Shown here one piece after another: positions 1 through 20,793 of a DNA stretch of 34,469 nt. The DNA is from Ichthyophthirius multifiliis (Eukaryota > Ciliophora > Oligohymenophorea > Hymenostomatida), in contig NW_004087590.1 of the NCBI RefSeq assembly GCF_000220395.1, forward strand, positions 1 to 34,469. Direction: 5' to 3'. The notes under the pieces were generated by a model that did no database searches, was not told where the DNA came from, and was given only the letters and a program-made list of their open reading frames with translations. How positions within the stretch are numbered: the first letter of the stretch is position 1; each line of letters opens with the position of its first letter. A program made the translations under genes and the position numbers.

Positions 1-1044
1 TTTTTTTATTTTATTATAATATTTATTTTATTATATAAATTATTTATTTTTTTTTTAAAAAAAAAAAAATCTGTTTATTGTTTCATTTATAAGATTTTCT
101 TTCAAATTCTATTAATAAAAAAATTAATTAAGTGTATTTTATTAACTATAAAATAAATATATACTATTTATATAATAATATAATTTAATGAACTAAAGAC
201 ATAATAATATATGATTTTTTATAAATAAAATGATTACATGTATTGAAAAATTAATATGTGTATATTTCATGCTGAAAAACATATTTATATATATATATAT
301 GTATAATTAATTATATAATATATATATATATTATTTTTAATATATATTTATTATATATGAGAAATAACATAATAATATCACAAAAATAATATATTAAGAT
401 GGAGTTAATACTTTATAATAATATTTTTTAATATAAATTTTTTAAAGATTTTATATATTTTATTCAGCAACATATATAAAGTTAATTTTTATTAAATAAT
501 TAAATATCTAACAAATATTCATTTTATAGTTAAAAATTTATATTAGATGAGTATATATATATAAAAAATATGATATAAATCTAAAATTATTATATTAATA
601 TTGAATTTTTTAAATAGTTTTATAAAAAAAATATATGTGATTTGAGTGTGTTAAAATAAAAGTAATTAAAAATAAAAAAATGGATTTAAAATAAAAAAAT
701 TACAAAAGACTTTCTCGGTATAAAATAATGACATAATTTATATAAAAAAAAAAGAAAAAGTGAATATATATATATATTTATTGTATAAAAATATAATATA
801 TATAAAAATATATATATATTTATATTTATATTAAATAAATATATATATAATATTAATATATTTTTTATTTTATTTTTTATTTATTTATATATCTTTATAA
901 TTATTTTATATACTTTTATTTTTAATTAATTAATAATTATATAATTTTTACTTCATAAAAATAAAAAAAATACATAAAATATTTATTTTTAAATAAAAAA
1001 ATTAAATTTTTTTTTTTTTATTTTCAATTTTTTTTATTAATTTC
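1..1044. other. AT-only spacer
   Basis: I see nothing coding in this stretch. It is almost pure A/T with short (TA)n tracts near 286-360 and 760-850 and no G/C-rich islands of the kind that mark exons elsewhere in the window. It lies downstream of the selenoprotein W-like gene on the minus strand and ends at that gene's SECIS element. Confidence 0.6.
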
Positions 1045-1122
1045 ATTCTTTTTATTTTTTATCTAAAAATTCCTCATTTTTGTTATTTTTTTAAAAGGAA
1101 TTTCTATCATATAAAAAAGAAT
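1045..1122 (-). promoter_or_regulatory. SECIS element in the 3' UTR of the selenoprotein W-like gene
   Basis: On the minus strand, about 52 nt after the terminal TGA, the sequence folds as a eukaryotic SECIS. Helix I pairs 1111-1122 with 1045-1055 (one bulged base), followed by an internal loop. The quartet is ATGA at 1107-1110 opposite AGAT at 1061-1064, giving U.U, G.A and A.G pairs. Helix II is 11 continuous pairs, TAGAAATTCCT (1096-1106) with AGGAATTTTTA (1064-1074). The 21-nt apical loop is A-rich and supplies the unpaired A residues. The spacing from ATGA to the first loop AA is 14 nt, slightly longer than usual. SECIS elements recruit SBP2 and eEFSec so that UGA is read as selenocysteine; that role is family knowledge, the fold is read from the bases. 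Confidence 0.78.
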
Positions 1123-1174
1123 GAAAAAAATTAAAAAAAAAAAAAGAAATATAAAATAAATAAAATTTATATAA

Positions 1175-1462
1175 TCAATTAGTTTTTTATTAGTTAATCA
1201 TTTCTCTTATTTTGTCAATTACTTTTATACATCCTTATCCATCACAATGGCCTTATCCTCCTAATTTAGACCAAAGTAATACCCTTTCTTTTCCAGGCAT
1301 AGTAATATAAACTTCAAAACATCCTGTATTTCCAGCAATAGCTTTACCTTCAATAACTATCTAAGAGAACGAGTTCTTTATAGAATTAGATAAATTATTG
1401 AACGAAGGTTTATATCCTCAACTACCACAATATTCAACCATTACTTTAATTTAGTTATCCAT
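1175..1462 (-). CDS. Selenoprotein W-like (Rdx family) with in-frame UGA = selenocysteine
   Basis: Single-exon 95-residue protein: ATG at 1460-1462, final TGA at 1175-1177. Codon 15 is also TGA (1418-1420) and falls exactly at U of the redox motif CxxU: residues 11-20 read YCGSUGYKPS, the SelW/Rdx signature. The rest follows the thioredoxin-like Rdx fold, with GCFEVYI near residue 47, LLWSK near 62 and a C-terminal helix VIDKIREMI. Length matches the family (85-100 aa). Internal TAA/TAG codons are glutamine. A SECIS element lies in the 3' UTR. Family members are cytosolic thiol-selenol redox proteins, possibly linked to glutathione and 14-3-3 proteins. The alternative reading, a stop at codon 15, would cut the protein inside its active site while the conserved frame continues for 80 codons. 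Confidence 0.88.
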
Positions 1463-8498: not shown

Positions 8499-9719
8499 TA
8501 ATATTTATATATATACATATATATATTATAATATAATTTACTAGCTCATATTTTATATAATGAACTTTAATATCATGAAAAACCTTATATATGGAGAATA
8601 TGTGACAAAGAAAAGTTCTAATTTGAAAAAATTAAATTCGAGAAAGAAAAAATGCATGAAAAAATATTTTAAAATAGGATTTAGTTAAAAAACGAATAAA
8701 TTAAAAGTGAAAAACAAAGAAACGAAAAATTAAATGAATTGAAAATTTTGAGATATAAAGTTGAAAAAAGCGATTTCGGAAAAAAAACTTAATAAATTGA
8801 AGATTAATTTTTTTATAATTAAAGTTTTTATTAAAAAAATGAAATTCTTTTGCCTAGTTAGAGCAGTTTTTGGCCATAAAAAGAAGCCTTTTATCATTTT
8901 TAAAATTAATAATAATTAATATAGCCTGCCTTTTTTTAATATGATGAAGATAATAATAACTTTTAAGAAGAAGATTATTTAAAAAAAGAAGAAAAAATAG
9001 ATTGTAATTAAGAGTTTTTTTATGAAAAAAAAGATTAAAATTAATTATAAAAATAAAATCTTGAATAACCAACTTCTTACCATGAAGATCAAAATAAAGA
9101 TAACTATTAATAAAATAATAATTAAAATTAATAAGAAAATGAAGTTATAATACATTAAAATGAATAATTAAATGAACAAATCGATATAAATTAAGAAATA
9201 AATTAAAAATTAGAAATAAATTAATAAAACTATGATTAAAATTTATAAAAAACTAATTAAAATGATTAAAATTAAGAAAATAATGAATAAATTTAAAAAA
9301 AAAGCTAAATTTAAATAGAAAACATGAAATAAAATAGTGAAAAAAACATTTAAATTAATAAATAAAAAAGTTAAAATGAAATAAAAAATAATGATGATTT
9401 TTTTAAAAATTAAAGTAAAATTTTTATTGATGATTAAAGTGTATTTTTAGAGAAAAAAAAGGAAGAAAAAATATCAAAAATAGATGAGAAATTCGAAAAA
9501 ACTATAAATGAAATTGAATATATTCTTAAATAATAACAAGGAAATATTGAATATATAAATTATTAAGAAAAAATCGAATTATTAAAATAAAGAAATAAAT
9601 ACTTATCTAATAAAAGAATAGAAAGCTTTTAATAATAATAATAGTATTAAGATAATTATTTTAAACCTGAAAATTTGGATGAACTTTTAGATAATTTTAT
9701 TACTTAAAAAAAATGTTGA
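8255..9719 (+). CDS. Q/N-rich coiled-coil protein, unrecognised
   Basis: ATG at 8255-8257, TGA at 9717-9719. One intron (8442-8544, 103 nt, phase 1) gives an uninterrupted 453-residue frame. The first 60 residues are helical and Q/K-r ich (KVLQNQENKQEKQIQIQK). Residues about 63-150 contain HILYNELQYHEKPYIWRI and then a strongly charged coiled coil (FEKIKFEKEKMHEK). The middle is Gln/Asn-rich and almost entirely disordered, with many glutamines written TAA. The C-terminal 110 residues are coiled coil again (KISKIDEKFEKTINEIEYIL) ending in FITQKKC. I do not recognise a family; a ciliary or cytoskeletal scaffold would be typical for such a protein in a ciliate but is only a guess. The single intron with matching phases makes the gene model itself secure. 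Confidence 0.72.
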
Positions 9720-10047
9720 TTTTATAACTAACTAAAATAAATATATTAAAATTATAAAAATAGAATTTTTGATTAATTTATAATAAAAAAATAGTTGTTT
9801 TATATAAATAATTAATTATAATATATAATAAAACAAATTTTTTTATTAGATATATAGTGAAATAAGTAAAAAAAATAATAATAAAAATAAAAGACTATTT
9901 TTTTTTATTTATTTATTTTTTTTTTTAAAAAAAAAAAACAAAATAAACAAAATAAACAAAATAAACAAACAAATAATAAAATAATATTTTATATTATTAT
10001 TATTATTTATATTTATTTTTTTTAAAAAAAAAATAAAAAATAAATAA
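9720..10047. other. Spacer with a short AAAATAAAC tandem repeat
   Basis: This lies between the coiled-coil gene and the Polo-like kinase. At about 9939-9975 there are roughly four copies of an AAAATAAAC-like unit, followed by ATT repeats at about 9985-10012. Nothing coding was seen. Promoter elements of the kinase gene must be here but are not recognisable. Confidence 0.5.
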
Positions 10048-12036
<1,989 letters not shown>

Positions 12037-12821: not shown

Positions 12822-13854
12822 TGTATTGTTTTTTTATATTTTATAATATGTTATTTTGTATTTTTTTTTTATTTTAATTTTAATATGTTATTGTTATTTT
12901 TTATTAATTTTTTTTTTTTTATATATTATTTATTATATGTATTTTATAGAAAATTTCTTTTTTCCTTGGAAATTAGATTTTTTCTATTTTTCTGTTTTAT
13001 AAAATTAGAATATTAATTATAATTATTTATTTTACAAAATTTAATTAATAGGAAAAATATTAATAATAAATTAATTATAAATATATATATAAATATATTT
13101 ATATATATTTATATATATTTAGTAATAATTAAAATTAAGAACTTTTCTATTTATATTTTTTTTTTAATTTAAATATTATTAATATTATTTTACATAATTT
13201 GAAAAAATTTATTTATATTCACATTTTTTTTTATTTAATTATTTATTTTCATTTTTTTTAATTTTAATTAAAAATTAAATTTTAAATAAATATTCCATCA
13301 TTTATTTAATATTATTTTTTTTTTTTATTTTGATAAATCAATAAATATAACTTATAAATAAAATAATAAAAATATTATATAATAATTTATGAAATTTTTA
13401 TAACATATAAATAAAATAATAAGAAAATTTTATTAATTTTTTTTTATATTTATTTTATAAATAAAATATATATTTTTTTTAGAGAAAATATAATAAATGC
13501 ATTAAGCTTTAAAATATTTGCTACATCTCATAAACTTTAAATATTTTTTAAATAATATAATATTGACATAACATTATTAAAATGAAAAGACCATTATAAA
13601 ATGCTACAAAATTTAATAATCTTACATTATATAATGTTAAACATTAATTAACTTTAAATTTAAATAAAGATAAATAAAAAATCTTTAAATAAAAATATTT
13701 ATATATAAAACTTAGATATAATAATTATTTTAAATTTTTACATAAAATAAATTATTAAATTAATATATATATATTTAATAAAAACTAAATTTTTAAAATA
13801 ATAAACACATTATATATACATTTTATAAAATAAATACGACAAGTAGTTAATAAA
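12822..13854. other. AT-rich divergent spacer upstream of the P-type ATPase
   Basis: This is the 5' side of both the small minus-strand gene and the ATPase. A frame opening near 13498 stays free of TGA, but composition and residues do not look like a protein. T-runs occur near 12860-12925 and 13215-13330. No promoter motif or RNA gene was recognised. Confidence 0.5.
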
Positions 13855-16800
13855 ATGTCCTAATAAATAATACATCCTCTATAAAAGCATTTCCAAACAT
13901 CATTTGAGGAAATAAAGTAAGAAATTTATATATAAACAACCATTACAGACCTAAATAACACTACATAAAATTCCCGTCATTAATTCCGTTAAGAAATAGC
14001 CTAATAAATACTATAATAAGACGACCATTTAATACCTTTAAAAGACCTTTCTTTAAAATATAATACACATATAGAAACTGGCTTAAATGAACAATAAGCG
14101 GAGATTAATATATAAATATATGGGGACAATAAATTAACTGAAAAGCCTAAAAAATCTAAAATTTTGATATTTTTATTAGAACTAACTAACGGTTTTTCAA
14201 TTTTATTATGGGCGGGTTCTTTTTTATGTTTTTTAGCTTTTTTTATAGACTCCTCAGACTTATCTAACTTATATTTAGGTTCAATAATAGTGTTCGTTGT
14301 TTTATTAACTGGAATAATTACTTACCATTAAAATGCGACAAGTGAGGCAATCATCGAGTCTTTTAAAAATATACTGCCGAATAATTCCCTAGTAACCCGA
14401 GAAGGTAAAACATACCAAATAAACTCATCTAGACTAGTCCCTGGAGATCTTTTGACTATAAAATCAGGTGAAAAAATACCCGCAGATATCAGAATAATAT
14501 CATCTATAGAGATGAAAGTGGATAATTCACCTTTAACAGGAGAATCGGAGCCATTATTAAGGCAAGATGATGCTTTAAATGTCTAAAATCCACTAGAAGC
14601 GCCCAATATGGTGTTTTCAGGGACTTTATGTAAATAAGGAATCGGGAAAGGGATAGTATTGAAAACTGGAGATAGGACAATTATGGGAAATATAGCGCAT
14701 TTATCATAGTAGGAAAAATAAGTAAAAAGCCCGCTGAGGGAAGAGCTAGATAGGTTTGTAGTTTATGTACTTATTATAGCGGTTTTTTTAGGGGTTTTGT
14801 TCTTTTTTTTAGGTTTTTTCGTTATTTAGTATGATATTACTTCTTGTGTACTTTTTGGTATAGGAATTCTAGTTTCAAATGTACCTGAAGGACTTTTGGG
14901 CTGTGTGACTATTTCTTTGGCTATTACTGCTAAAAATCTAGCATAAAAGTCCGTTTTGGTCAAGAATTTGGAGACTGTAGAAGCTTTAGGAAGTACTTCG
15001 TGTATATGCACAGATAAAACAGGGACTTTAACGTAGAATTAAATGACTGTGAGTGCTTTTTGGGCTTGCTTGGATTTTTAAGAGGGAGCTTTAGAAAATA
15101 ATTAGGTTTTTTAAGATTTACATTTATGTTCAGTTTTATGTAATGAGGCGTAGTTTGATGAAAAAAGCGGGGAAGTATAAGGGAGTGCGACTGAATGTGG
15201 ACTATTGAGATATTTCTAGGAAATTGAAGATGTTAAATAGACTAGAAAGAGGTTTAAAATAGCGAAAAACATTCAAGGAAATGAGGCTAAATATCCTTTT
15301 AATTCTAAAGATAAATTTTCTTTAATTATTATTGAAAAAGAAGATGAAAATAATAATTTTTGTGTTTACTTAAAAGGGGCTCCTGAAAAAATATGGAATT
15401 TTTGTTCTCACATATAAAATAATAATGAAAAAATAGATGAAATAAACTAAGAAGCATAAAAACTTTATGAAAATGCGAATAATATTTTTGGAAAAAAAGG
15501 ATAAAGAGTAAAAAAAAAAATATATAAATATATTGATATATATATTTTATATATTATAAATATATTAAAATAAATATATTTAATTTATAAATATAAGTAC
15601 TTTTTATATTTAATTAAAAAATTATATATGTAAAAAATTATATATATTTATATCTTATTTTATTAAAATTTTTATAAAGATATAAAAATATACGTATATA
15701 TATAAAAAATGTAATATAAGTAAAATGACACTATATATTTAATTATAAAAATACTATATATATTAAAAATTAGAATATTAATATTCAATAATATTACTAA
15801 TATTCTATATATATATATATATTTATTAAGATACTATATATAATAATATAGAATAATATTAATATATAAAAAATAATTTTTTAAATCTTACTATTTATTT
15901 ATTATTAATATATATTTTTTTTAAGGTTTTAGCATTTGCAAAATTATTTTTAAAAAAAGAAGATTATCCTATAAATTATAGATTTTAGTTATAAAATATA
16001 GATAATTTTCCTTTTTAAGTAAATCAATTTATATTTTGTGGATTAATATCATTTATAGATCCTCCTAAATTAAGAGTTCCTTCTGCTATATTATAATGTA
16101 GAAGTGCAGGAATAAAAGTAATAATGATCACTGGAGATTAGCCTTCCACAGCTTTAGAAATCGCTCGTTAATGTAACATAATTCCTCGAAAAAAAAGGAC
16201 TAATTATGATGATTAAGAGGGTGATTTCTACTAGAAAATCGACTAAAACGACGCTATAATAATAAGAGGTGATGAAATCGAGAAATCCTTTGAAAAGGAA
16301 AAAAGCGAAGGTTTCCCTTCTGAATATTTCCTTTAAAAATGGATAAAAAAGCCCTATTGTGTATTCGCGCGTACAACCCCAGCTCAAAAACTATAAATAG
16401 TATAAGCTTGCCAATCTTAAGGTTACATATGTGCTGTAACAGGAGATGGAGTAAATGACTCACCTGCCATAAAATAAGCCGATATTGGCATTTCAATGAA
16501 TATATCAGGATCTGATGTCACTAAAGATGCTTCCGATATGGTATTATTGGACGATGATTTTGCCAGTATAGTTTAAGGGGTAGAAGAAGGGAGAAAGATA
16601 TTCGATAATTTAAAGAAGTCAATCGTTTATGTATTAGTAAGTAATGTACCGGAAATTATTCCGTTTATTGCATTTATTATTTTTTAAATACCGCTACCTA
16701 TTACTAGTATTTATATGATTTGTATAGATGTAGGGACTGATATTATTCCGTCAATTTCGTTTTCTTATGAAGACGCAGAGATCGATATTATGACGAGAAA

Positions 16801-17614
16801 ACCCAGGAAAAAAAATGAACATATGGTTAGTCTAAAATTACTTTTTCATGCGTATTTTTTGATGGGGGTTTTGGCAATAGGAGGTGGATTTTTGGCTTAT
16901 TTTACAGTCTTTAATTAATTGGGATTTCCAATAAAAAGCCTTTTTGGATTAGCAATTGAAAAGGGAGTGCTTAGACCACCAAAAGGGGATTTTTAGGAAG
17001 GTTTTGGATGTAAAAATTGCTTAAATGATGATTGTGCGTACTTCAATGGGAATTTCATGTAGAAAAAAGCATATAATTGCATGCAAGATTTAGATCTTTT
17101 AAAAGGGTAAAAAGAATGGGATTTTAAATGGCTTAGTAATGAATTCGGTGATTATGATTTGAGAAAAAGCCTTATTTTTTGTGATGAAAAAAGCGGAAAA
17201 TGGACACCGAAAATTAAATGGGGAAAATGCAATACTAGTATGTTTATTTCGCCTGTTTCAGGAAATACAGCATGCTTTACAACTGAAGCGCTTAAATATG
17301 CATAAACTGCTTGGTTTTGTTCTGTTGTATTATTCTAGTTTAGTAATGTTATATGTCTAAAGGGTAGAAAAACATCTTTTTCATATACCTAAATGAATAA
17401 ATTTATGATTTTTGGAATTATCTTTGAATTGGGATTTTGCTTATTTTTACTTTATGTACCATATGTGTAGAATATTTTTGGGTCAAGACCTTTAAATTTC
17501 GAAATGGTGTTGATGCCTTCGTTACCATTTTCGATATTAATTATGGTTTGGGAAGAATTAAGGAAATATCTAGTTAGAAATTATTGGTGGTTTGAGAAAT
17601 ATTCTTATTATTGA
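13855..17614 (+). CDS. P-type ATPase alpha subunit, P2C (Na+/K+-ATPase type)
   Basis: ATG at 13855-13857, TGA at 17612-17614. One 418-nt intron (15508-15925, phase 0) gives 1,113 residues, close to the family length with an extended N-terminus. Hallmarks in order: TGE loop (LTGESEP), M4 VPEGL, phosphorylation site CTDKTGTLT with Asp387, KGAPEK in the nucleotide domain, [15 protein letters not shown] hinge, M5 VLVSNVPEI and M6 [11 protein letters not shown]. These M4 Glu, M5 Ser and M6 Asp/Asp positions are the Na+/K+-ATPase ion ligands. The C-terminus WWFEKYSYY matches the conserved C-terminal Tyr-Tyr of Na+/K+ pumps. It should sit in the plasma or a vacuolar membrane and exchange Na+ for K+ (or a related cation). 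No beta-subunit gene is in the window. The intron is by far the longest here and is nearly pure A/T. Confidence 0.95.
15508..15925 (+). other. 418-nt intron of the P-type ATPase gene
   Basis: GTAAAA donor after GGATAAAGA and TTTTAAG acceptor before GTTTTAGCATTTGC. Removal joins GKKGQR to VLAFAKLFL, the expected sequence of the nucleotide-binding domain. It is unusually long; all other introns here are under 160 nt. The inside is (TA)-rich with several imperfect repeats of ATACTATATATA-like units. No ORF or RNA was recognised. Confidence 0.88.
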
Positions 17615-17875: not shown

Positions 17876-20180
17876 ATGGATAATGTTGATACAGTTATAA
17901 TGAAACCTCCTAAAGTTAAAAATAAGGGAGCAAATCCAATATAAATTACAGCTGAATAATTATTATAAAGAGCTTTCTTGGATCGAAAAAAGCCATTTGT
18001 TTAATAAGATTATAAAATAAGAGATGAAGATGATTTAGATTAAATAAAATAATAAAAAAGACGAGATTTTGAATAAAAAATACGCACATAAAGATTCCAT
18101 ATAGGACATTGGTTAAAGTAAAATAAGCATTATATTTATTTTTATATATGTAAAAATAATAAGATATGCTTTATTTGAAGAAAGCCTTTAAGAATTTAGA
18201 AGAGCTCGAAGTGTATATGAAAGAACTTTAGAAGTTGACTATAAAAATATATCTATATGGCTAAAATATATAGAAATGGAAATGAGACATAAATTTATTA
18301 ATCATGCCAGGAATTTATTTGAAAGAGCTATAGAATTTTTACCAAGAGTTGATTAATTTTGGTATAAATATGCTTATATGGAAGAACTTGTTGGTAATTA
18401 TATATAGGCAAGAAACATATATTAAAGATGGATGAATTGGAGACCAGAAGAAAAAGCATGGCTTTCATTTGTAGCTTTTGAATAGAGAGTAGGTGAAATA
18501 TAAAATGCTAGATAAGTTATGTATAAGTAAGTTTTTTTTTAAAAAAAAATAAAATAAAATAATAATAATATATATGCATAGTTATATGGATGCTTTTCCA
18601 AGATTAAAAACATATTTAAAAGTAGCGAAATTCGAAGTAAAATTAGGGTTTAAAAAAGAGGCTAGGAAATTATTGGAAAATACAATAGAAGAATTGGGAG
18701 AAGAAAGCTTAAAAGAAGAATATTTTATTACTTTTGGGAAATTCGAGATAAGGGAGAAAGAATTTGATAGAGCAAGGGAAATATTTAAATTTGGTTTAGA
18801 GAATATTACAAAGGAGAAATCTAAGAAGTTATATGAAGAATATTTACAATTCGAGAAATAATTCGGTTCTAAAGATGAAATCGATAACTTAATATTTAAT
18901 GAAAGAAGACTTTAATATAAAAAATTAATTTCTTAAAATTAAAACAATTACGATGCCTGGTTCGATCTGGTTAATTTAGAAATAGAAACTAAAAATATAA
19001 ACCGGATAAGGGATACTTTTGAAAATGCCATAAAAAATGTTCCCAAAAATAATAATGAAAAAAGACTGTGGAGAAGATATATTTATTTATGGTATTCCTA
19101 TGCCACCTTCGAAGAACTAGAATAGGGAGATATTTTAAGGGCAAATCAGATATACGAGAGGGCTTTAAAATTAGTTCCTCATAAAAATTTTACATTTTCA
19201 AAATTATGGGTTATGTATGCTTAGTTTTAATTAAGGTGCTAGGATTTAGATAAGGCCAGGAAGATTTTCGGTATTGCCTTAGGGAAATGTCCTAATGATA
19301 AGATCTTTCAGGAATATATCGATTTAGAGTATAAGTTAACTAATTTAGTTAGGGTAAGGTAAATTTATGAAAAATATATTGAGGTTTTTCCAGATAATCC
19401 TTTACCGTTTGTCTAATGGGCCAAATTGGAAAAAAGTCTGGATGAATTGGATAGATATAGAGCTATTTTCGAAATTGCAATAGCTCATTAAAGTATGAAT
19501 ATGCCAGAGACGGTATGGAAATCATATATTGAAAGTGAAATTGAATTAAAAGAATATGAAAATGTAAGAAGATTATATGAAAAGCTATTAGGAAAGTCGA
19601 AAAATGTGAAAATATGGATTAGTTATGCCTAGTTTGAGGCTTCTATTTAGGAAAAAGGAAAATGTAGAGAAGTTTTTAAAAGGGCAGAAGAATATTTTAA
19701 AGGAGAAAAAGAAATGAAAGAGGTTTTTTATTTTATTTTTATTTTATTTTTTTATTTTTTTATTTTATAAGTAAAGAGCTATGGTTATAGAATAATGGAA
19801 AGAATAAGAAATTAAATTTGGAGATTAAGAATTTATTTAATAATTATAAGAAAAAATGCCAAAAAGAGTAAAGAAATAAAGAAAAATTAAAATTGTGGAA
19901 GGAGATTTAGAAGAAGATGCAGGTAGTTTATTTTTTAAATAAATATTAAAAACGATTTATTTAAATAATATTTATTAATATATATATTTTTTAAATAATT
20001 TCAATAAATATTTTTATATAATTATTAAAAGGTTATGAAGAATATTATGATTATATTTTCCCAGGTGAAGAGGAGGATTCCAAATATTTAAAAATTTTAT
20101 GGAAAGCTTAATAAAGGAAAAAAATATAAGAATAAAAATAAAAAGAAGTTTAAGAATAATAAAAAGAAATTATAAATTGA
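17876..20180 (+). CDS. Crooked neck-like pre-mRNA splicing factor (CRNKL1/Clf1/Syf3)
   Basis: ATG at 17876-17878, TGA at 20178-20180. Introns 18118-18163, 18527-18581, 19723-19771 and 19923-20031 all fit phase and give 681 residues, the usual size. Family blocks are clear: an N-terminal ITAEQLLQRAF, then about a dozen HAT repeats ([64 protein letters not shown]), and the conserved C-terminal [13 protein letters not shown] and [10 protein letters not shown]. Clf1/CRNKL1 is a scaffold of the Prp19-associated (NTC) complex and is needed to assemble the catalytic spliceosome in the nucleus. The gene itself has four introns. Start choice follows the alignment of [17 protein letters not shown] with the family N-terminus. 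Confidence 0.96.
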
Positions 20181-20793
20181 AAAAAATAATTAAATATATT
20201 TAAATGCAAAAAAAAAATTATGTTGAATTATATTAAATAGATATTCAAATTCTTACAAAAATTAAAATAAAAAAATATATTTAAAAATTTTAAAAAAATA
20301 TAACAACTTAAAAAATAATTAATAAAATAAAATATATATATTTAAATATTTATATATATATATATAATTTGTTTTTATATATTATATTATATATTTAAAT
20401 AATAATATATATTTATGTCTATATATATTTTTAATTTTTTACTTAAATATTTTCTGTTTTTTATTTTTTATTGTTATCATATTATATTTTGTATTTTTGA
20501 TACTATTAATAAATATAATTTTTATTTAATTAATAAATCTAAATAGTAATTTATTTAATTTTTTTATATTATAATTAATATAAGTTAAAATTTTTCTAAT
20601 TTTTTTTTTTTTTTAAAAAACATACTTAATAGATATTTTCTAAATAAAATTAATATTGTTAATTATTATCAAAATATATTTTTTTTATAAAAATTTTTTT
20701 ATATAATATTTAAATTTTTATATTATATTTTTTCCTTTTTTTAAAAAATTTTTATTATATTTTTTATCTAATAAATTTATTTATTTAATTTAT
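20181..20793. other. Convergent AT-rich spacer
   Basis: This lies between the 3' ends of the CRNKL1 gene and the minus-strand gene that follows. It is A/T-only in large part, with T-runs near 20601-20614 and 20727-20736. Nothing coding or structured was recognised. Confidence 0.5.

Follow-up and report, generated by a model that had tools for sequence, protein, structure and literature searches.

A candidate selenoprotein W gene of Ichthyophthirius multifiliis with UGA as the probable codon for selenocysteine at one position and as the stop at another

A locus on contig NW_004087590.1 of Ichthyophthirius multifiliis probably represents a selenoprotein W gene (here called SelW1) of a Tetrahymena-like ciliate, in which UGA codon 15 would specify selenocysteine (Sec) through a SECIS element in the 3'UTR and UGA codon 96 would act as stop; we assign this reading a probability of about 0.93. 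The same codon is thus most likely read in two ways within one short mRNA. At the level of sequence, the evidence comprises the gene and its redox motif, the anatomy of the SECIS element, a paralogue that also bears the UGA, genes for tRNA-Sec and SepSecS, a domain of eEFSec, an SPS2 gene that itself contains UGA, and the use of UAA and UAG (UAR) as sense codons. From these features we infer Sec insertion itself at codon 15. The window, i.e., the whole stretch of 34,469 nucleotides that was analysed, has a G+C content of 16.7% and belongs to a genome assembly of 44.96 Mb in 937 contigs.

The SelW1 coding frame lies on the minus strand of the window (1175..1462). It runs from an ATG at 1462-1460 to the UGA stop at codon 96 (1177-1175) and encodes 95 residues under the ciliate code, in which UAA and UAG specify Gln. 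The redox motif CGSU occupies codons 12-15 (1418..1429, minus strand), and in alignments with mouse SelW (2npb) and with the paralogue SelW2 its presumed Sec codon 15 (TGA at 1420-1418) takes the second redox position of the CxxC/CxxU motif, opposite a cysteine in 2npb. With C in place of U, the predicted protein matches the Rdx family PF10262 (49.4 bits, cut-off 22.6) and the CXXU_selWTH model TIGR02174 for SelT, SelW and SelH (62.4 bits, cut-off 34.2), and both 2npb (E 1.1e-5) and C17orf37 (2ljk; E 3e-6) align on either side of the UGA. An earlier note on this DNA had placed the TGA at 1418-1420, as codon 15, at the U of a CGSU motif and had let the frame run on to a second TGA at 1175; the frame, the motif and the family matches agree with this description, the second TGA being codon 96. 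If the gene were decayed or the sequence in error, UGA 15 would be a true stop or a misread Cys codon. Such an explanation would be in line with the searches of a protein collection, in which neither SelW1 nor an alignment of SelW1 and SelW2 found a homologue among 1 and 4 candidates, respectively. However, the frame is open to codon 95 and the TIGR02174 match reaches residue 83, the CGS-UGA motif is kept at the same codon in SelW2 (contig C757), which shares 40% identity with SelW1, and a high-scoring SECIS element follows in the 3'UTR. We regard decay or error as extremely improbable.

The SECIS element of SelW1 was placed at 1041..1126 on the minus strand, as were all its parts, by folding, a strict scan and shuffling, and is the top window match, at a modest score, of a covariance model from which it was left out. 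In the predicted fold, a helix I of 13 bp pairs 1114..1126 (5' strand) with 1041..1053 (3' strand) and is followed by an internal loop, which separates it from the quartet and helix II. The strict scan placed the 5' half of the quartet, ATGA, at 1107..1110 (within ATGAT, 1110-1106) and the 3' half, AGAT, at 1061..1064. Helix II, on which fold and strict scan concur, has 12 bp formed by 1095..1106 and 1064..1075, the last base of its 3' strand being also the first base of AGAT, and is capped in the scan by an A-rich apical loop of 19 nt (1076..1094). The element hence shows the AUGA/NGAN quartet, the helices, the internal loop and the unpaired apical adenines by which eukaryotic SECIS elements are recognised. 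The earlier note had drawn the same structure about 52 nt beyond the stop, with 11 bp in helix II and 21 nt in the loop; helix I begins at 48 nt, and the scan gives 12 bp and 19 nt. It had also called the apical loop and a spacing of 14 nt slightly atypical. This spacing, for which the first AA that follows the TGA at a distance of 7 nt or more was used, ranges from 8 to 14 nt among the seven genes with a strict hit, and the 14 nt of SelW1, at the long end of the range rather than odd, recur in the element of the thioredoxin reductase (TrxR) gene on C720. An unusual loop or spacing was dropped as an objection to the SelW1 element.

Folding of the 96 nt at 1130-1035 yielded -21.8 kcal/mol (z = -4.6), and none of 200 shuffled sequences was equally stable. 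The strict scan, which was written for this analysis and scores the quartet, helix II, the adenines and the energy of helix I, assigned SelW1 -23.3. When the first 400 nt of the 3'UTR were put through 2000 dinucleotide shuffles, no score was better than -10.8. The background of the strict scan consisted of 588 segments of 500 nt from both strands of the window and of further loci, with overlapping loci counted repeatedly, and the best four reached -18.3, -10.1, -8.8 and -8.0. Judged by place and score, the top segment holds the SECIS element of the selenoprotein T (SelT) gene, and the one at -8.0 belongs to the glutathione peroxidase (GPx) gene; both genes are discussed below. The strict rules, in two versions, recovered three of six published Tetrahymena SECIS elements, and the strict scan therefore misses real ones. 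Looser rules recovered all six and added decoys, some of which outscored SelW1: four of 577 background segments scored better than its -13.3, namely one at -20.2 in a cation-ATPase coding region (window 14401-14900, plus strand), two at -16.4 that are one place in two loci, and one at -16.2 that is SelT's own element. By Pfam matches, the plus strand of the window encodes a polo-like kinase (9376-12033), this cation ATPase in two frames, with introns or a frame junction (13582-17611), and a CRNKL1-like HAT-repeat protein (18505-20223). A covariance model built without SelW1 put SelW1 at the top of its 40 window matches, with 19.5 bits (E 1.2) against 17.5 bits for the runner-up, and ranked it ninth of 11 over 25 sources, behind six loci of training elements, one repeat of a training element in an overlapping locus, and a match of 25.1 bits in locus L026. 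The latter was taken as a decoy, as no adjoining selenoprotein frame was seen. This ranking is agreement of a modest kind, not proof. The SECIS models of Rfam matched neither SelW1 nor any of six loci with other selenoprotein genes, and because those loci are silent as well, the silence at SelW1 says little. In the 3'UTR of SelW2, which is a paralogue and not an orthologue, a similar element scored -11.0 in the strict scan, and one of 2000 shuffles was equally good.

In nine genes of the genome, UGA stands where a known family has Sec: SelW1, SelW2, SelT, GPx, SPS2, and four TrxR genes. A strict score of -8 was reached within 900 nt past the stop by six of the nine. In the background, four of the 588 segments did so, and two of these four belong to selenoprotein genes themselves. 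The SelT gene (C679; L011, positions 1228 and about 1747-1810) was found blind as the top strict background segment, with its SECIS core at +118 past the stop. Before this hit only an Rdx exon lacking a Sec motif was known from it; the upstream frame then gave CIG-UGA-SYKG, which is taken as the Sec motif of a predicted SelT. A SelT-like paralogue in locus L015 (C242:9559-9840) apparently has YCKSHQ in place of CxxU, and its matched stretch contains no TGA. The GPx gene (C438, L033; NVACK-U-GLT) scored -8.0; its exon, of the Sec type, is the single match of the GPx family search in this genome, and 12 GPx isoforms are listed for Tetrahymena thermophila in PMC7409322. SPS2 (C838; LKG-U-GCK) was recognised from three exon matches (86.1, 49.9 and 33.1 bits), none of which reached the cut-off of 125 set for the whole protein. 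The names of the TrxR genes are based on exons that match the TGR profile, again below the whole-protein cut-off in every case, and on the C-terminal motif, which lies beyond the matched stretches. This motif reads GC-U-G-stop on C720 (strict SECIS -8.5) and C921 (-10.7), and C-U-A-stop on C906 (-4.9, weak) and C584. Strict and looser scans found nothing convincing as a SECIS element in SPS2 and in the TrxR gene on C584. All four TrxR genes (L021, L023, L027 and L030) end in TGC TGA GGT/GCT TGA, which places the Sec and stop UGAs 6 nt apart. In L030, the TrxR coding sequence has an apparent frame junction (C921:108168-108195), after which family matches resume in another frame, and which may be an assembly error or real. 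A search for MsrA found two exon matches at one place, without TGA.

Reassignment of UGA offers a further explanation for codon 15, as UGA specifies Cys or Trp in some ciliates (PMC6879139): another tRNA, or near-cognate readthrough, might insert one of these residues, and the stem-loop would be incidental. A tRNA that reads UGA generally as sense would put UGA elsewhere too, and the scarcity of UGA therefore counts against this explanation. Nine family searches gave 41 exon matches, which by a hand-made sum contain 193 TAA and 26 TAG codons in frame, i.e., 219 UAR, but only 6 TGA. Four of the latter are the Sec sites of SelW1, SelW2, SPS2 and GPx, and the remaining two, codon 3 of 200 in the TrxR match on C906 and codon 2 of 91 in that on C921, sit at the upstream edge of the match, where reading exits the exon or shifts frame. 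Moreover, the SECIS element is accompanied by tRNA-Sec, SepSecS and eEFSec. We thus consider Cys or Trp at codon 15 very unlikely. In this genome UAR is sense and UGA is stop (table 6), and tRNAs with a TTA anticodon are present in two of the loci (L003 and L004). That UGA serves both as sole stop and as Sec, leaving all 64 codons sense, had been proposed in the earlier note and is supported by the SECIS element, tRNA-Sec and the UGA in SelW2. The statement must be read as each codon being sense in some mRNA; UGA remains a stop.

Returning to selenocysteine as the preferred meaning of codon 15, most of the machinery sought was found. The earlier note had named the lack of both a SECIS element and a tRNA-Sec as one case against its claim; this case did not arise, the SECIS-like element being joined by a tRNA-Sec on C401 (62.9 bits). 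None of the other 12 of 13 matches exceeded the Rfam cut-off of 47. The anticodon of this tRNA-Sec, read off the alignment, is UCA; the tRNA was absent from the output of ARAGORN, for which the bacterial code was set. SepSecS is present (359.6 bits), its closest named relative among the best 120 of 2553 matches, most of them unnamed, being SepSecS of T. thermophila with 55% identity. The further components listed in the note gave a mixed outcome: domain III of eEFSec was found (84.8 bits, cut-off 27), and none of the seven L7Ae matches in the genome was convincing as SBP2. We take these seven to resemble Snu13/NHP2-type proteins and the ribosomal proteins L7a, S12 and L30. PSTK was likewise not identified, the sole KTI12/PSTK-type gene in the genome looking like KTI12.

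In the proposed mechanism, the SECIS element in the 3'UTR would deliver Sec-tRNA(UCA) with eEFSec to codon 15, where the element, its binding protein, eEFSec and the tRNA would outcompete the release factor and the ribosome would insert Sec. At codon 96 the release factor would act and end SelW1, and the product would be a small CGSU protein with a presumed thioredoxin fold and redox role. What distinguishes the two UGAs is less obvious. Codon 15 lies 307 nt from the SECIS core, above the minimum of 51 nt between Sec codon and SECIS element given in PMC3737529. The choice between Sec and stop cannot be attributed to spacing alone, however, because the distance from the stop to the core, 64 nt (A of ATGA at +65), also exceeds this minimum, and because the Sec and stop UGAs of the four TrxR genes are so close to each other. 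In addition, the Sec codons of TrxR in Condylostoma and Parduczia violate the 51-nt minimum (PMC4967479). Most likely, the UGAs would be told apart by a positional window for Sec, set by the SECIS element, in combination with termination promoted near the 3' end. A discriminator that has not been described so far might set the choice instead, with codon 96 sometimes serving as a second Sec codon. The resulting extension of 43 residues would run through and disrupt the SECIS element and end at a third in-frame UGA, codon 140 (1043..1045, minus strand), which matters only upon readthrough of codon 96. As codon 140 lies within helix I, one may conjecture that any second Sec insertion would send the ribosome through the SECIS element, and the extension would be a self-limiting switch. 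We consider this scenario very unlikely. Because UGA is the only stop, each mRNA of these selenoprotein genes would use one codon as both Sec and terminator, and the TrxR genes, with their two UGAs six bases apart, provide a compact natural test of Sec insertion versus stopping.

For Tetrahymena and Ichthyophthirius, the use of UGA as stop and Sec, and with it a code of 64 sense codons, has been described before; SelW1 is a further example. The Ichthyophthirius genome paper reports a tRNA-Sec and all 64 codons as potentially translated, "like T. thermophila" (PMC3341644). In its text the word "selenoprotein" does not occur, and apparently no Sec gene or SECIS element is named there. Beyond the tRNA of the genome paper, predicted selenoprotein genes, including two SelW and one SelT, can now be named in a ciliate with UGA as stop. 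Among the listed open-access papers, judged by title, start of the abstract or selected passages and including a survey that covers ciliates (PMC4561486), we recognised none that describes SelW or SelT as a selenoprotein of Ichthyophthirius or of another UAR ciliate. SelW is widespread among Sec-using eukaryotes (PMC2375036). The set listed for T. thermophila in PMC2612030 comprises six selenoprotein genes (two GPx, three TrxR, and SPS2) and no SelW, and a later survey gives one Sec-GPx only, with no SECIS element reported for it in that account (PMC7409322). I. multifiliis resembles T. thermophila in having UGA as sole stop and Sec codon, SECIS elements in the 3'UTR, and GPx, TrxR and SPS2 in common, but has two SelW genes and a SelT gene in addition, and its TrxR genes number four. 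A close counterpart of the gene itself is SelW3 of Euplotes crassus, also a ciliate SelW with an N-terminal UGA-Sec and a C-terminal in-frame UGA: its Sec codon is UGA 9, a second in-frame UGA stands at 85, and in HEK cells Sec insertion was better at UGA 85 than at the natural position 9 (PMC3737529). In Euplotes, however, UGA means Cys or Sec and never stop, whereas UGA 96 of SelW1, in a similar region to UGA 85 of SelW3, must stop. Finally, as in Condylostoma magnum and Parduczia, UGA would act as sense, stop and Sec codon within a single genome (PMC4967479). In those two ciliates UGA also specifies Trp and no dedicated stop exists, whereas in I. multifiliis UGA seems to be a normal stop in mRNAs that lack a SECIS element.
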